From Desulfosporosinus sp. Sb-LF (GTDB lineage Bacteria; Bacillota; Desulfitobacteriia; Desulfitobacteriales; Desulfitobacteriaceae), in the NCBI RefSeq assembly GCF_004766055.1, contig NZ_SPQR01000006.1:248001-312000 (forward strand): DNA of 64,000 nucleotides. Reading direction: 5' to 3'. Numbering within the stretch: position 1 is the first letter of the stretch; each line of letters starts with the position of its first letter. The notes beneath the pieces are model-generated. The model ran no database searches. It was not told the DNA's origin and worked only from the letters and a program-made list of their open reading frames with translations. A program made the position numbers and the translations under genes. Shown here one piece after another: positions 16,424 to 22,385 of the stretch.

Positions 16424-16825
16424 ATGTTACAATTATCGATTTTCCTGGAGAATGCAAAAGGGCGGTTGTCCGAGGTCATTAATCTACTCGCTGAACTTAA
16501 GGTGAATTTGCGGGCTCTATCGCTGGCGGATACCAAAGATTATGGGGTGTTGCGGATTATCGTGGATGAGCCTGAAGTAACAACGGAAAAATTACGGCAA
16601 CACAAAGTCGTTGTTTCCTTAACTCAGGTTTGGGTACTTAAGGTACCAGATCGCGCCGGAGGGCTGGCTGAGATGCTCAACGAACTTGTCAAAGAGGACG
16701 TTGTAGTGGAATATATTTATGCTTTTGTAGAAAAGGAAAATGAACAGGCCCAAGTTGTTCTCCGAGTACAAGATCAGGTGATTATGGAGAAGGCGATGCA
16801 GAAGATCAATTCGCTGATAAGGTAG
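16424..16825 (+). CDS. Tandem ACT domain protein
   Basis: A 133-residue protein made of two ACT domains: residues ~1-68 (LSIFLENAKGRLSEVINLLAE) and ~69-133 (LKVPDRAGGLAEMLNELVKE). ACT domains bind amino acids and act as allosteric sensors. GGGAGGGG lies before the ATG, 13 bases after the ligase stop, so the two form one operon. It probably senses an aromatic or branched amino acid, by analogy with other ligase-ACT pairs. A diverged palindromic repeat follows its stop codon. Confidence 0.85.
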   Translation: MLQLSIFLENAKGRLSEVINLLAELKVNLRALSLADTKDYGVLRIIVDEPEVTTEKLRQHKVVVSLTQVWVLKVPDRAGGLAEMLNELVKEDVVVEYIYAFVEKENEQAQVVLRVQDQVIMEKAMQKINSLIR

Positions 16826-16937
16826 GAGTCAGTTTCTCAGCCGTTTACATACGCGCTGCTTTGTTATCTTCTTGACGATGTTGCTAAAACCCATTAGAAG
16901 ACAACTAGAGTGCTCTCTACTGAGAAGCTTCCTCTAG
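16826..16937. repeat. Palindromic intergenic element, diverged copy B
   Basis: The element begins at the stop codon of the ACT gene. Its ends, TAGGAGTCAGTTTCTCAG and the complement of CTGAGAAGCTTCCTCTA, are imperfect inverted repeats resembling copy A at 3241-3422. An inner arm pair GTTATCTTC / GAAGACAAC is present. Confidence 0.6.
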
Positions 16938-17002
16938 GTAAGTCATTGGTGGGCGTTGGGTACGACGGTAAGAGAGGCGTTTGAATAGGATGACGACCGT
17001 TT

Positions 17003-17372
17003 CTAAGAGAGAAATAAGATGACGGAGGCAATGATGAGGTTTTTCGTTTCGGAAAAGTCTACTTTAGCCTCGATAAGAGTACGTAAACCTGCCGTGCCGA
17101 TCATCCCGAAGAGGAGTATGGTGACTCCACCCATAACTGCTGTAGGAATGGACATGATTGCGGCTTGTAAAGGATTGAACAGACTGAAGACGACGGCGAT
17201 GATCGCTGCCATCCAGATGTTGAAGGTACTATAAACCTTGGTTACAGCAAGCATTCCAATGTTCTCACCGTAGGTGGTCACCGGAGGACCTCCGAGAAAA
17301 CTAGCTACGGTGGTGGCTAAGCCGTTACCAAGAAGGACACGATGAAATCCGGGGTTATCAAGAAAGTTCAGT
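17003..17372 (-). pseudogene. Uracil permease, C-terminal fragment of an older gene
   Basis: The minus-strand frame from about 17372 to the TAG at 17003 encodes the second half of an NCS2 uracil permease, starting at NPGFHRVLLGNGLATTVASF and running through TTYGENIGMLAVTKVYST to the family EAKVDFSETKNLII. It is about 80% identical by eye to residues ~255-380 of the intact permease at 17867-19093. Homology begins abruptly near 17363 with no start codon or ribosome-binding site, and the last ~40 residues of the family are missing. It looks like a remnant of the same gene as the piece at 19340-19477. Confidence 0.85.
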
Positions 17373-17472
17373 CTATAAGAATAATTTTTTGGTGGTAACA
17401 CCAAATTACATCGAACATAGTGAAGATTACAAACAATAATACCCTGATTAGCTTCGATAAAAAGCCAAATCT

Positions 17473-17499
17473 AACACCTCCCATAAAACGGGAGGTGTT
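17473..17499. terminator. Hairpin between permease remnant and small ORF
   Basis: Perfect 10-bp arms AACACCTCCC and GGGAGGTGTT surround a 7-base loop, with CTCATTT after it on the plus strand. It could be a terminator or a subterminal hairpin of a former mobile element. Confidence 0.55.
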
Positions 17500-17528
17500 C
17501 TCATTTCGATATTATACGAGATTAGCAA

Positions 17529-17553
17529 ACTTCGCATCCTACTAATGCGAAGT
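17529..17553. repeat. Second perfect hairpin in the insertion boundary
   Basis: ACTTCGCAT and ATGCGAAGT form a 9-bp stem with a 7-base loop. On the plus strand it lies upstream of an A-run. It is not followed by a T-run on either strand, so it is not an obvious terminator. Confidence 0.5.
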
Positions 17554-17576
17554 AGCTCATAAAAAAATCACGTACT

Positions 17577-17777
17577 TTGATGAATCTTATTATACTATTA
17601 TATTTCACGACCTATATCGGTAAGCGCTATGAGATATGTACTGATTTAGAGAAGATGAAGCAAGGTGTGTCTTCTGAAAATGGTCGCATTTACCGACATG
17701 GTTCGGCTGGCACATCTGAGGAAGAAGCGATCCGTCAGTTTGAAGCGCAAGTCAGACGTATTGAGGATGCCAGTTAA
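17577..17777 (+). CDS. Small hypothetical ORF, doubtful
   Basis: A 66-residue frame that I do not recognise. The first 15 residues are hydrophobic. From Met27 onward (start 17655) the sequence is hydrophilic and ends in an amphipathic helix (SEEEAIRQFEAQVRRIEDAS), which looks protein-like. Neither start has a good ribosome-binding site. It ends 19 bases before a strong bidirectional terminator, consistent with a real or decayed transcript. It may be the 3' end of a gene lost in the rearrangement here. Confidence 0.3.
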   Translation: MMNLIILLYFTTYIGKRYEICTDLEKMKQGVSSENGRIYRHGSAGTSEEEAIRQFEAQVRRIEDAS

Positions 17778-17796
17778 GAATGTGCTGGTAATAGAA

Positions 17797-17832
17797 AACA
17801 GCCTAGCGAGGATATAATCCTGCTAGGCTGTT
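17797..17832. terminator. Bidirectional terminator between small ORF and uraA
   Basis: Perfect 11-bp arms AACAGCCTAGC and GCTAGGCTGTT. TTTCTT follows on the plus strand and TTTTCTATT on the minus strand, so it can end uraA (minus) and the small ORF (plus). Confidence 0.88.
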
Positions 17833-17866
17833 TCTTAGCTTGTAAGGAGTCGCAACATTAACTCTC

Positions 17867-19093
17867 CTATTTTGCGGCCTCTTTGGTCATATCTAATACC
17901 TCTTCAGTTTCAGCCTTGAGAATAAGATTTAAGAAAATTCCTGCTAGAGTAGCAAACATGATACCATGATTAGTTAACCCGATGCCTAAAGCGAATATTA
18001 CTGCTGCAATAATAAGGTTTTTGTTTTGTGAAAAATCGACTTTAGCTTCGATGAGAGTTCTTAGTCCAGCTGCGCCAATCATTCCGAATAATAGGATTAC
18101 TACGCCACCCATAACTGGGGTTGGAATGGACATAATCAATGCTTGCAAGGGGTTAAAGGTACTTAGAATAATGGCACTAATAGCCGCAATCCATATATTG
18201 AATGTGCTATATACCTTCGTAATGGCTAATACACCGATATTTTCTGCATACGTTGTCAGTGGAACTCCACCAAACAAACTGGCTATACCTGTTGCTAAAC
18301 CATTCCCTAAAACAACTCTATCAAAACCTGGGTCTTGAATTGGATCAGTATGAGTAATGTTACCAAGAATCATCATATGACCTAAATCTTCAATCAGTGT
18401 AATGAGAGCTAATGGAGCGAAAGTTAGTATAGCAGTTACATTAAAGTTGAGTGTGCCAAAACTGCTGAATGGTAAAACAAATGGCGTTTTAAAAGATGCA
18501 ATAATCTTGGCTGTATCAACTAATCCCATAAACCCAGCAAGTATATATCCTGCCACAATCGCTATAAGAATTGGTATGACTTTAGGAAACCCTTTAGCAT
18601 ATACACTGACTAAAATTGCTACTGCTAATGTAAAGATTGCTACAATCCAATTTGCACCTGCCATTGATATTGCTACTGGTGTTAAACTTAATCCGATAAT
18701 TGCTACAACACTTCCTGCAACAACAGGGGGGATTATTTTGTTTATCCACTTAGTACCAAATAGGCGAAGTATAAAGTAAATGAGAATATATGCTATACCT
18801 ACCGATAAAACTCCGGTCATTGCTGAAGCTAGATTATGCTGATCCTTGATAAATGCTGTTAAACTGGCAATAAAGGCGAAAGATGAACCGAGATAAGCAG
18901 GAACTTTGCTACGTGTTAGAAGTAAGAATACTATTGTCCCAATACCTGAACAAAACAATGCTGTGGCGGGACTTAGCCCCGTCAGGAAAGGCACTAAAAT
19001 TGTGGACCCCGTCATGGCAAACAAATGTTGCACTCCGAGGGGTATAGCTCTAGTTAATGGTAATCTTTCGTTAATTTGAACTTCATTCATCAT
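17867..19093 (-). CDS. uraA: Uracil permease (NCS2 family)
   Basis: A 408-residue integral membrane protein of the nucleobase-cation symporter-2 family that imports uracil with protons. It starts with RLPLTRAIPLGVQHLFAMTGSTILVPFLTG, matching UraA/PyrP, and has about 12-14 hydrophobic helices. The substrate-binding region is TLIEDLGHMMILGN, followed by TYAENIGVLAITKVYS. AGGAGG lies 8 bases before the ATG. Base composition looks more AT-rich than the flanking genes. It lies between the two halves of an older permease gene, so it was probably inserted or exchanged there. It may be transcribed from the older promoter and PyrR attenuator at 19496-19648. Confidence 0.92.
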   Translation of the reverse strand: MMNEVQINERLPLTRAIPLGVQHLFAMTGSTILVPFLTGLSPATALFCSGIGTIVFLLLTRSKVPAYLGSSFAFIASLTAFIKDQHNLASAMTGVLSVGIAYILIYFILRLFGTKWINKIIPPVVAGSVVAIIGLSLTPVAISMAGANWIVAIFTLAVAILVSVYAKGFPKVIPILIAIVAGYILAGFMGLVDTAKIIASFKTPFVLPFSSFGTLNFNVTAILTFAPLALITLIEDLGHMMILGNITHTDPIQDPGFDRVVLGNGLATGIASLFGGVPLTTYAENIGVLAITKVYSTFNIWIAAISAIILSTFNPLQALIMSIPTPVMGGVVILLFGMIGAAGLRTLIEAKVDFSQNKNLIIAAVIFALGIGLTNHGIMFATLAGIFLNLILKAETEEVLDMTKEAAK

Positions 19094-19339
19094 CTTGTCA
19101 TCCTCCTAATTGTACTTAATGCCTATACAGGCATGTAAACTCTCAGGTATTACTCTGAAGGAATCCTCCTTACAGTCGGTGCTGTCTTCGTTTCGCTAAC
19201 GCGAAACTCAGCTAGACCTTGTGTTCTTTTAACCCTTCGGGTTAGATTGGTTAGTAACTCAATCCAATCAATTACTACATATCTCATATAGAATTTTTAT
19301 GAAATAATAATGCCTCAACCCGTTGGTAATTAAGGTACT
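19094..19339 (-). other. Spacer between the permease remnant and uraA
   Basis: This stretch holds two short perfect hairpins (TAACCCGAAGGGTTA near 19230-19244 and TTTCGCGTTAGCGAAA near 19191-19206) and the uraA ribosome-binding site. Neither hairpin has a T-run. No PyrR-binding loop is found in this part. Confidence 0.5.
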
Positions 19340-19477
19340 CTAGTTATTATCGTAATATACACCGAGTTTAAAAGGGACAAGAACCGTAGCACCGAACATG
19401 GCAAAGACGTGTAGTGAACCGAGAGGGACCGCCTGGGCAAGGGGGAGTTTTTCGTGGATTTGAATTTCTGTAGACAT
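19340..19477 (-). pseudogene. Uracil permease, N-terminal remnant (45 codons)
   Basis: ATG at 19477, preceded by GAGGAGG, starts a frame reading MSTEIQIHEKLPLAQAVPLG, then HVFAMFGATVLVPF, clearly the N-terminus of an uracil permease. After about residue 36 the similarity stops, and the frame ends in an unrelated tail and TAG. The ribosome-binding site, PyrR leader and promoter upstream are intact. Together with 17003-17372 it is the rest of a gene broken by the segment 17365-19365. Confidence 0.88.
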
Positions 19478-19495: not shown

Positions 19496-19599
19496 AAACA
19501 AAAAACCTCTTCCCTGCCCGCAAGCAAGAAAGAGGTGTCCATGTTTAATCCATGGTTCGCCATTCCCTTCTTAGTCTCACGGGACTAATTTAAAGGTGC
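19496..19599 (-). promoter_or_regulatory. PyrR-dependent attenuator (pyrimidine leader)
   Basis: On the minus strand the leader contains TTAGTCCCGTGAGACTAA (19588-19571). It holds AGTCCCGTGAGACT, which fits the PyrR-binding loop consensus ARUCCNGNGAGGYU with one accepted change. A terminator hairpin follows (ACCTCT / AGAGGT arms at 19536-19505, then T5GTTT). This is the standard design in which PyrR with UMP/UTP favours the terminator. It precedes the broken permease and probably still controls the downstream intact uraA. Confidence 0.9.
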
Positions 19600-19618
19600 A
19601 AGGATTTAACTTGTATTG

Positions 19619-19648
19619 AGCATACCATAATTCATTCTATTTTGACAA
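19619..19648 (-). promoter_or_regulatory. Candidate promoter for the PyrR leader
   Basis: On the minus strand TTGTCA (19648-19643), 18 bases, then TATGCT (19624-19619). The PyrR loop begins about 30 bases downstream. Confidence 0.65.
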
Positions 19649-19750: not shown

Positions 19751-19945
19751 CTCTTATCTGGAGTGGTGGAGGGACTGGCCCAATGAAACCCGGCAACCAG
19801 CCGTTAACTCTTGCGTTTTGATGCAAGGAAGCGGTATGGTGCTAATTCCTGCAGAAGACAGTTATAATGATTCTTCTGATAGATAAGAGGAGTGGCAAAT
19901 AATGGGCAAGCCTCTTCTCTTTTCAGAAGGGGCTTTTTGTTTCTT
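19751..19945 (+). ncRNA. SAM-I riboswitch (S-box) with terminator
   Basis: P1 is formed by CTCTTATC (19751-19758) and GATAAGAG (19882-19889). The core has GAGGGACTGGCCCAATGAAA, then CCCGGCAACC, and GGTGCTAATTCCTGCAGAA, all hallmarks of the S-box aptamer. A terminator follows: AAGCCTCTTCT (19908-19918) with AGAAGGGGCTT (19925-19935) and a T-run. The 3' strand of P1 (AAGAGG) can pair with CCTCTT of the terminator as an antiterminator, so SAM binding should stop transcription. The next clear gene is priA, followed by def and fmt, an unusual regulon for this riboswitch. Confidence 0.95.
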
Positions 19946-20075
19946 CTTAAATTCCTTTCGAAGATTTTCAGTTACAGATGCGGCGATGGAGCACTTTAAG
20001 GGGATTTATCTGATCACTCCTTTTAATTACTATGAGATGACGGTTGAGTTGACAAAGTATATAATGGTAAGGTAA
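19902..20075 (+). CDS. Possible 57-residue ORF inside the riboswitch expression platform, doubtful
   Basis: ATG at 19902, with GAGGAG ten bases upstream, opens a 57-codon frame that runs through the terminator hairpin and ends in the priA promoter region. The product (MGKPLLFSEGAFCFF...) is not recognised. The ribosome-binding site overlaps the 3' strand of riboswitch P1. It could be a SAM-controlled small protein or simply a chance frame. Confidence 0.2.
   Translation: MGKPLLFSEGAFCFFLNSFRRFSVTDAAMEHFKGIYLITPFNYYEMTVELTKYIMVR
20037..20065 (+). promoter_or_regulatory. Candidate second promoter for priA
   Basis: ATGACG (20037-20042), 17 bases, then TATAAT (20060-20065), placed 44 bases before the priA start. 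It would allow SAM-independent expression of priA. Confidence 0.5.
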
Positions 20076-20108
20076 TGTTGATATTTTTGCTGATAAGGAG
20101 GCGTCTTG

Positions 20109-22385
20109 GTGTTTCGCTATGCTGAAGTATTGGTTGATGTAGCAAATCGGCGCCTGGATCAAAGTTATCATTATGCTATTCCTGAGCATTTTGCCTTGAT
20201 AATAGGAATGCGAGTACTCGTCTTTCTTCAAAACCGTAAGGTTCAGGGACTTGTCGTGAATGTGACCAATGATCTGCCAGATGAACTGGCGTCTGTAAAG
20301 CTGAAACCCGTTCTGGAGATTGTGGACGAAGAGAGTCTTGTTCCTACGGAGCTGATTGAGCTGGCACATTGGTTAGCAAAAACGACAATCTGCTCTGTGG
20401 CACAATGCTTACATACGGTCTGGCCGCTACTCAAAGGAAAAGTAGAAGAGTGGATCATTCTCCAGGTATCTATTAAGGATCCAGATGTTCAGACTCTGCA
20501 GTGGCTGGATACGGATGCTTATCGTGCGATTTCGGTGCTTAACCGGGCGCGGAGTAAGTCTATATCTCTAAAGATCTTCTTAAAACGAGCGAATATCTCC
20601 GTGGAGATGCTTGAGAAACTTATCCAACAAGGGTTGGCGAAAAAGGAAACTCGCTTTGTTTCGACCGGGGAAGGGTCTAAAAGGAAAGCATCTTGCAATG
20701 AAGGTCCATTAGAGATCAATGGCTCCAACTCTCCTTCAGGTCGGACTTACGAATTAACCGTGGAGCAAGCCTCGGCAGTGAGCAAAGTGTCGGCTGCATT
20801 AGAGGGAGGTTCATCTCAAACTGTTTTATTGCATGGTGTGACAGGTAGTGGAAAAACGGACGTCTATCGAGAGTTGATCACAAAGGTATTAGTCGAAGGT
20901 GGAGATGCCATTCTCCTTGTACCTGAGATTTCCTTGACTTCTCAAGTTGCTCGTTATTTCGAAACTCAATTCGGCGGGAAAGTCATAATTTTGCACTCTG
21001 GCTTACAGCCAAGGGAAAAAATGAAAGCCTGGGAAGACATTTTATCTGGGCAAAAGCGGATCGTCATCGGGGCTCGTTCGGCTGTGTTTGCACCTCTGCC
21101 AAATTTACGTCTCATCATTTTAGATGAGGAACACGATGGCGCGTATAAACAAGATGAGAATCCCAAATACCATGCACGAGATGTTGCCCGTAAGCGGATG
21201 GAACAGCGAAAGGGTGTGGTATTACTCGGGAGTGCGACTCCTTCCTTAGAAGCCTATGCTGCAGCGCAATCGGGTAAAATACACTTGTTAACGATGACTG
21301 CGCGGATTGGAATGAGTGTCTTACCGCCCGTTGAAATCGTGGATATGCGGGAGGAACTTTTAAATGGAAATCGGAGCATGTTTTCTCTTCTTCTACAACA
21401 AAAATTGAGGGAAAGACTTGAACGTGGCGAGCAAACCATGCTTTTTTTAAATCGCAGGGGGTATTCCACCTTTGTAGTTTGCAGGGAATGTGGTTATGTG
21501 ATGGGTTGTCCTAATTGTGATATTGCCCTCACTTATCATAGTCAAGGGCAGGCTATGTGTTGCCACTATTGTAACCACAAAGAGCTTCCTCCTCATACGT
21601 GTCCGCAATGTGGTAGTCGGTACATCCGGTTTTTTGGACAAGGAACACAGCGTGTGGAGGAGGAGCTTCAGGGCTTGTTGCCAGAGGTTCCTATATTGCG
21701 ATTAGACTTCGATACGACACGATCTGGCGAAGCACATCGCACGATCTTGGAAAGTTTTCGTCGTCAAAAAGCATCTATTCTGGTAGGGACGCAAATGATG
21801 GCCAAAGGGCTCGATTTTCCGAATGTCACGTTAGTTGGAGTGATTGCCGCAGATCAGATGCTCAATATGCCCGATTTCCGGGCCAGAGAACGGACGTTTC
21901 AACTTTTAACTCAGGTCGCTGGTCGAGCGGGGCGGAGCATAAAAGCGGGTGAAGTTGTCATTCAAACGTATTCGCCGACAGAGGGTGCTATTTTGAGGGC
22001 AGCCCATCATGATTTCCAAGGGTTTTTTTGGGAAGAGATTCGGTATCGTAAAGTGCGAAGGTATCCGCCGTTCACCCATATCATCCGTGTCCTACTACTT
22101 CATGAAAAAGAGGATCGGGTCATCAGAGGGGCTAATGATTTGGGGGCATGTCTGCAGCAGGGAATGCAAAACCCTAAATTTGGAAATAATGAATTAGATA
22201 TCCTGGGACCCGCTCCAGCTGTTTTACCTAGACTTAAGAATCAATGGAGATGGCAAGTATCCGTTAAAGGGACAAATTTGGATCAACTCAGGGCGTTTTT
22301 GCATCGAGGGGTTCAAATGTTTTACAAAAATTCTGCTAGTAGTGGCGTTGTTTTGAACATTGAAGTCGACCCCCTTTCCAGTTAA
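20109..22385 (+). CDS. priA: Primosomal protein N' (replication restart helicase PriA)
   Basis: PriA recognises abandoned replication forks and reloads the replisome; it is a 3'-5' DNA helicase. The 758-residue product has the N-terminal fork-binding domain (FRYAEVLVDVANRRLDQSYHY), Walker A GVTGSGKTDVY (~residue 245), the DEEH box (LIILDEEHDGAYKQDENP) and a zinc-binding region with four CxxC-type pairs (CRECGY, CPNC, CHYC, CPQC; ~residues 460-505). Helicase motifs V-VI follow (GTQMMAKGLDFPNV, QVAGRAGR). GTG 20109 lies 7 bases after AGGAGG; TTG 20106 is an alternative. It heads priA-def-fmt. Confidence 0.97.
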   Translation: MFRYAEVLVDVANRRLDQSYHYAIPEHFALIIGMRVLVFLQNRKVQGLVVNVTNDLPDELASVKLKPVLEIVDEESLVPTELIELAHWLAKTTICSVAQCLHTVWPLLKGKVEEWIILQVSIKDPDVQTLQWLDTDAYRAISVLNRARSKSISLKIFLKRANISVEMLEKLIQQGLAKKETRFVSTGEGSKRKASCNEGPLEINGSNSPSGRTYELTVEQASAVSKVSAALEGGSSQTVLLHGVTGSGKTDVYRELITKVLVEGGDAILLVPEISLTSQVARYFETQFGGKVIILHSGLQPREKMKAWEDILSGQKRIVIGARSAVFAPLPNLRLIILDEEHDGAYKQDENPKYHARDVARKRMEQRKGVVLLGSATPSLEAYAAAQSGKIHLLTMTARIGMSVLPPVEIVDMREELLNGNRSMFSLLLQQKLRERLERGEQTMLFLNRRGYSTFVVCRECGYVMGCPNCDIALTYHSQGQAMCCHYCNHKELPPHTCPQCGSRYIRFFGQGTQRVEEELQGLLPEVPILRLDFDTTRSGEAHRTILESFRRQKASILVGTQMMAKGLDFPNVTLVGVIAADQMLNMPDFRARERTFQLLTQVAGRAGRSIKAGEVVIQTYSPTEGAILRAAHHDFQGFFWEEIRYRKVRRYPPFTHIIRVLLLHEKEDRVIRGANDLGACLQQGMQNPKFGNNELDILGPAPAVLPRLKNQWRWQVSVKGTNLDQLRAFLHRGVQMFYKNSASSGVVLNIEVDPLSS

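Follow-up and report, generated by a model that had tools for sequence, protein, structure and literature searches.

In Firmicutes, uracil permease genes of the Bacillus subtilis pyrP type are attenuated by PyrR, and the classic cases of gene displacement in situ were deduced from trees after the old gene had gone. How a foreign gene lands exactly at the resident's place is seldom visible. In the terms in which two later papers cite it (PMC1847511, PMC2259305), displacement in situ, or xenologous (orthologous) replacement (Omelchenko et al. 2003, Genome Biol 4:R55), has a horizontally acquired homologue take the resident gene's own locus; homology-facilitated illegitimate recombination, in turn, offers a single-step entry of foreign DNA without homology at one end (PMC6382021). 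Here we describe a locus of Desulfosporosinus sp. Sb-LF (G000) at which the old gene is preserved on both sides of the incoming one, with its regulator in front, and for which congeners show apparent later stages at the same position. The locus shares with the described displacements the takeover of a resident gene's own place by a horizontally acquired homologue, and it differs from them in two respects: parts of the resident gene can still be seen to either side of the newcomer, and within one genus the exchange has taken place repeatedly at one locus. Literature searches found no described case in Desulfosporosinus. The kind of event is known, while its preserved intermediate and its recurrence are unusual; we consider that the worth of the locus is that of a natural experiment (and not of a new system), in which the order of events, the type of junction, the rate of decay and regulatory capture are measurable within one genus.

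The window (the whole stretch of 64,000 nucleotides analysed) lies within a 337-kb contig of the 4.27-Mb genome. Between an ACT-domain gene and priA it carries a PyrR leader, the N-terminal part of a permease gene, a linker (linker 2), an intact permease gene, a further linker (linker 1) and the C-terminal part of the broken gene, all in minus-strand orientation (Table 1). Throughout, uraB denotes the intact permease gene and uraA the broken resident one.

Table 1. Features of the uraA/uraB locus, with positions counted from the first letter of the window.
Feature	Position	Strand	Evidence or remark
ACT-domain gene, resident downstream flank	16424..16825	+	same neighbour in nearly all congeners
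uraA C-terminal fragment, ~120 codons, truncated at both ends	17003..17363	-	DNA identity to congener uraA; junction alignment; PF00860 E=3.6e-36
Linker 1, came with or after uraB	17364..17786	.	over its length only in G000
Small ORF, 66 aa, inside linker 1	17577..17777	+	no relative found
Hairpin 3' of uraB, likely its terminator	17796..17833	-	perfect 12-bp inverted repeat; same hairpin after G024 uraB
uraB, intact foreign gene for a predicted uracil permease, 408 aa	17867..19093	-	PF00860 E=1.5e-87; TIGR00801 above cut-off; foreign clade 100/100
Carried-over spacer of the upp-uraB arrangement, with the uraB ribosome-binding site	19094..19164	-	83% identity over 72 bp with the spacer between upp and uraB in CTSoil_071 (L144)
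Linker 2	19165..19367	.	first part common to other Desulfosporosinus uraB loci; ~19236-19367 without matched source
uraA N-terminal fragment, 36 codons	19369..19477	-	DNA identity to congener uraA; frame continues to a stop at 19340
Predicted PyrR-binding leader of resident uraA, now ahead of fragment and uraB	19498..19600	-	RF00515 51.9 bits, E=2.9e-5
Promoter-like site of the leader	19619..19648	-	consensus scan only
priA, resident upstream flank	20106..22385	+	adjoins uraA across the order

Two features of the surroundings may be mentioned. A SAM riboswitch (19751-19889, 82.7 bits) precedes priA, from which nothing but a short frame (19902-20075) separates it. The gap between the ACT-domain gene and uraA or uraB (16826-17002 in the window) holds unrelated genes in several congeners: it measures ~5 kb in G019 and G027, contains rubrerythrin-like genes in G001 and G018, and carries other frames in G002, G005 and G021.

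The two fragments are the remains of one resident gene. The C-terminal fragment is 75-86% and the N-terminal one 79-91% identical in DNA to the resident uraA of congeners, both match uracil-permease profiles (E=1.4e-46 and E=1e-9, respectively), and both are closest to the resident uraA clade and not to uraB. The N-terminal fragment is contiguous with the resident PyrR leader (which has 94-96% identity with the G024 and G008 leaders), and the C-terminal one with the ACT-uraA intergenic stretch, which is still recognisable in G017. Moreover, uraA stands at the same locus, beside priA and with the PyrR leader, without an insert in 18 congeners (a few draft contigs end nearby), which excludes chance as the source of the split gene, and a gene of the same type adjoins priA, with a leader, in further genera and families of this order, for which reason we take uraA to be the ancestral occupant. 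In comparison with the uraA of G008, ~650 bp are absent between the fragments and ~2.0 kb stand in their place. An earlier sequence-only reading of this DNA had proposed a permease gene split around an intact permease, the two halves in the same orientation, its middle interrupted or replaced by ~2 kb and similarity stopping near 19368 and 17363; it had suggested comparing the fragments with permease lineages, and the locus with that of relatives, and on all these points the comparison with congeners agrees and neither of the two outcomes that it had named as contrary was seen, the breaks being sharp and lying at ~17363 and ~19367-19369 in the alignment to seven intact congener genes. Its length of 36 residues for the N-terminal part also stands; its span of 19340-19477 was too wide, since the 36 codons occupy 19369-19477 and the frame from 19340 adds nine unrelated codons. 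To that reading the present analysis adds the foreign clade to which uraB belongs, the spread of uraB through several lineages at this locus, and a second fossil in G010 (see below).

We consider it highly probable that these remains record an in situ displacement by a xenologous gene, preserved at an intermediate stage. Ancestrally, the locus would have consisted of uraA behind its PyrR leader; a uraB segment, of a lineage known otherwise from syntrophomonad-like Clostridia and already circulating among Desulfosporosinus, would then have been inserted into uraA in the same orientation, replacing ~650 bp of its middle. A single event would in this manner have broken the old permease gene and placed uraB (which has its own ribosome-binding site) behind the old PyrR-controlled promoter, so that regulation and function would continue while the coding sequence changes and the remnants of uraA decay. 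Insertion and deletion were probably one event. The join was probably illegitimate, as neither end shows usable homology; in this it departs from homology-facilitated illegitimate recombination, which is a candidate route. Campbell-type integration through uraA/uraB homology was also considered and rejected: it would leave hybrid genes, and neither fragment runs into uraB at its break. The chemistry of the junctions is unreadable, because the immediate donor is absent and both linkers are unmatched. A third break, at 17003, counts against a one-step account: the last ~42 codons of uraA and its terminator are gone, and this loss of the C-terminal end needs a second deletion. As for age, the fragments carry 5 changes at 107 columns invariant among intact uraA genes (0-3 in each intact gene), and decay appears to have begun but to be young; the age of the event is poorly bounded, because the reading frame of the C-terminal fragment remains open and has changed at few amino acids.

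The score of the leader (51.9 bits) falls just below the RF00515 gathering score of 54; five uraB congeners and L117 exceed the latter, and homologous leaders of other genes reach 49.7-53.1 bits. Every uraA or uraB locus of the genus that was tested has a homologous leader. PyrR is encoded in the genome, and from the attenuator to uraB the minus strand has no terminator-like site. These observations are consistent with uraB being transcribed from the PyrR leader and hence under PyrR control. As in genes of the B. subtilis pyrP type (and RF00515), a PyrR-binding leader with its terminator stands directly upstream of a uracil permease; here, however, the leader is that of the old gene, and what follows it is a broken 45-codon frame and a foreign permease. 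In another congener (G020; L061, contig 339, 80-1834) the PyrR leader of uraA is apparently split by ~1.75 kb.

With regard to its family, the uraB protein reaches 294 bits against PF00860 and 321 bits against TIGR00801 (cut-off 292), and it falls short of the cut-off of the NCBIfam equivalog PRK10720 (389.7 vs 477 bits), for which reason we name it a uracil permease by context and residues. It is a full-length homologue of the NCS2 transporter UraA of Escherichia coli (PDB 3qe7, 5xls, 8omz) and, in the alignment to 3qe7, retains F73, E241, H245, Y288 and E290; it differs from UraA in having Ala at G289 (TYAEN) and in missing the equivalog cut-off. We take E241, H245, Y288 and E290 to be uracil-contact residues. 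uraB probably transports uracil, and the agreement of family, binding residues and leader points to a functional equivalent of uraA.

The origin of uraB lies elsewhere than that of the gene it interrupts. Its protein is ~66-71% identical to the uraA proteins of the genus and groups (100/100) with those of four Clostridia outside the family (syntrophomonad-like: CTSoil_071, a Syntrophomonadaceae bin, HGW-Firmicutes-12 and AS01afH2WH_13), and a single clade of the genus' uraA and uraB is rejected (AU p=1.6e-5). Phylogeny accordingly shows uraB to be foreign to the locus, a xenologue of uraA in a separate clade, and the term paralogue applied to it by the sequence-only reading does not hold. In three of these genomes (CTSoil_071, the Syntrophomonadaceae bin and HGW-12) uraB stands after upp (upp being read from its protein sequence), and the spacer of this arrangement in CTSoil_071 matches the 72 bp directly upstream of uraB in the window; from this match it appears that uraB brought along the end of an old operon spacer together with its own Shine-Dalgarno sequence. 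No uraB was found in viral contigs. The intact gene is AT-richer than its surroundings, as had been remarked (GC 38.2% vs 45.5% for the window and 48-49.5% for the uraA fragments), and this is largely a trait of its lineage, since the other Desulfosporosinus uraB genes also have a GC of 39.7-44.1%. Such an unlike composition could raise the suspicion of an assembly or contamination artefact. We regard this as extremely improbable: the locus is interior to its 337-kb contig, uraB stands at the same locus in seven other assemblies, and the estimated contamination is 1.16%.

These seven further Desulfosporosinus genomes are G010, G002, G001, G018, G011, G021 and G024. No genome was found in which both types are intact, and G000 holds no intact second copy. 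The carriers share one uraB group, yet they occupy five places on the rpoB+gyrB tree (G010, G002, G001 and G018 together; G011, G021, G024 and G000 each alone), and a single clade of carriers is rejected (rpoB p=1.8e-4, gyrB p=4e-6, joined p=1e-39). Between G000 and G024 the dS of uraB is 0.28, one seventh of the 2.0 of rpoB (a value near 2 is close to saturation and to be taken as 'large'), while pairs of uraA give uraA/rpoB dS ratios of ~0.8-1.7; as its dS in this pair is far under that of rpoB, uraB must have moved between Desulfosporosinus lineages. On repeated occasions, then, uraB has taken the place of uraA at its own locus, with the old PyrR switch in front: an ancestral resident orthologue has given way to a homologue from another lineage that conflicts with the species tree and, in G000, sits in the same place and orientation with the resident broken. 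That both types occur at one locus and belong to the NCS2 family might alternatively suggest an ancient tandem pair of ordinary paralogues, of which each lineage lost one copy and G000 keeps the last remnants. To this we assign hardly any probability, given that no genome has both intact, that genes from outside the family are nearer to uraB than uraA is, and that the fragments enclose uraB and do not lie beside it; tandem paralogy with differential loss is ruled out by the dS of uraB and by its external clade.

The congeners differ in what is left of the resident gene. In G010, a frameshifted piece of the uraA N-terminus lies between the leader and uraB (score 46 vs at most 30 in 500 shuffles, 0/500 being as good), and this older, decayed remnant indicates that the G010 lineage also held uraA first. 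In G024 the leader and uraB meet at GGTATTCCTC, a word beside the resident start codon. Searches by tblastn found no C-terminal uraA remnant in the other uraB genomes, and for the N-terminus no significant remnant was found in G001, G002, G018 and G011, and only a 10-bp junction word in G024. Some of these observations would also follow if a single ancestral Desulfosporosinus insertion had made a block of leader, fragment and uraB, and if homologous recombination in the flanking DNA had later carried this block to other lineages, each of which trimmed it in its own way, and G000 least of all. The N-terminal fragments of G000 and G010 are broken in the same region and have ~70 bp of adjacent linker 2 in common, and the join in G024 fits a later deletion. 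We nevertheless consider such an old composite rather unlikely, as the fragments of G000 are barely decayed in comparison with the frameshifted one of G010, the fragments and leader of G000 are closest to G008 and not to G010, and its flanks resemble G024 no more closely than they resemble G008. The near-identity of G000 to G024 covers uraB only (~0.87-0.98 in 60-bp windows, most at 92-98%; 0.75-0.89 at the 5' end), and since the flanks do not share it, a simple homologous flank exchange with a G024-like donor fails for G000. Within uraB, a stretch of low identity to G024 (18940-19040, 75-85%) is either a small mosaic or a fast-changing stretch.

The uraB of G021 may have been taken from a different donor: its protein groups with ClostAS01 (100/95). 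On the other hand, a single clade holding every uraB of Desulfosporosinus narrowly escapes rejection (AU p=0.053), and G021 shares the short uraB leader. More broadly, the swapping of uraA for uraB may be a recurrent, selected cassette exchange, in which the conserved leader would anchor or favour incoming DNA and a foreign permease would repeatedly capture the regulated promoter of the resident in one step, G000 representing the first step (an insertion into the resident gene and not beside it); we hold this extension of the displacement reading to be possible, though doubtful. Outside the window, G000 carries a second full gyrB over the family cut-off (L185, C20:10287-12167), which is placed among other congeners than the main copy (C2:322753) and is either a foreign extra gyrase gene or stray assembly DNA.

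Neither linker has a match over its length in the genus or a second copy in the genome, and the small ORF of linker 1 has no relative in the family, in a phylum sample of 398 genomes, or in plasmids or phages. One may ask whether the linkers represent eroded termini of a small transposon that carried uraB as its passenger, the swap being a by-product of transposition into uraA. A perfect 13-bp inverted repeat (17628-17640 with 19276-19288; 2/200 shuffles as good) flanks uraB, part of linker 2 belongs to a repeat dispersed in the genus, and 17536-17605 is similar to the sequence that precedes a tyrosine recombinase and transposase-like pair in G022 (L065), with a second copy in G027 (L066); L065 and L066 have 255 bp in common at 82%. 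Nonetheless, among the features that define an insertion sequence (transposase, terminal repeats, target duplication, further copies), only the 13-bp inverted repeat is present: the insert has no transposase frame, no target duplication was seen by eye, and no second full-length copy of the linkers occurs in the genome or the genus. Furthermore, the linker ends are absent at other uraB loci, and the 38-45 bp upstream of uraB in common with an outside genome are operon spacer and not the end of an element. We consequently deem a mobile element improbable as the cause of the displacement. A hairpin-like stretch, GGTGCTGTCTTCGTTTCGCTAACGCGAAACTCAGCTAGACC (window 19162-19241), recurs at unrelated intergenic places in G016, G020 and G002, as a dispersed repeat of the genus.
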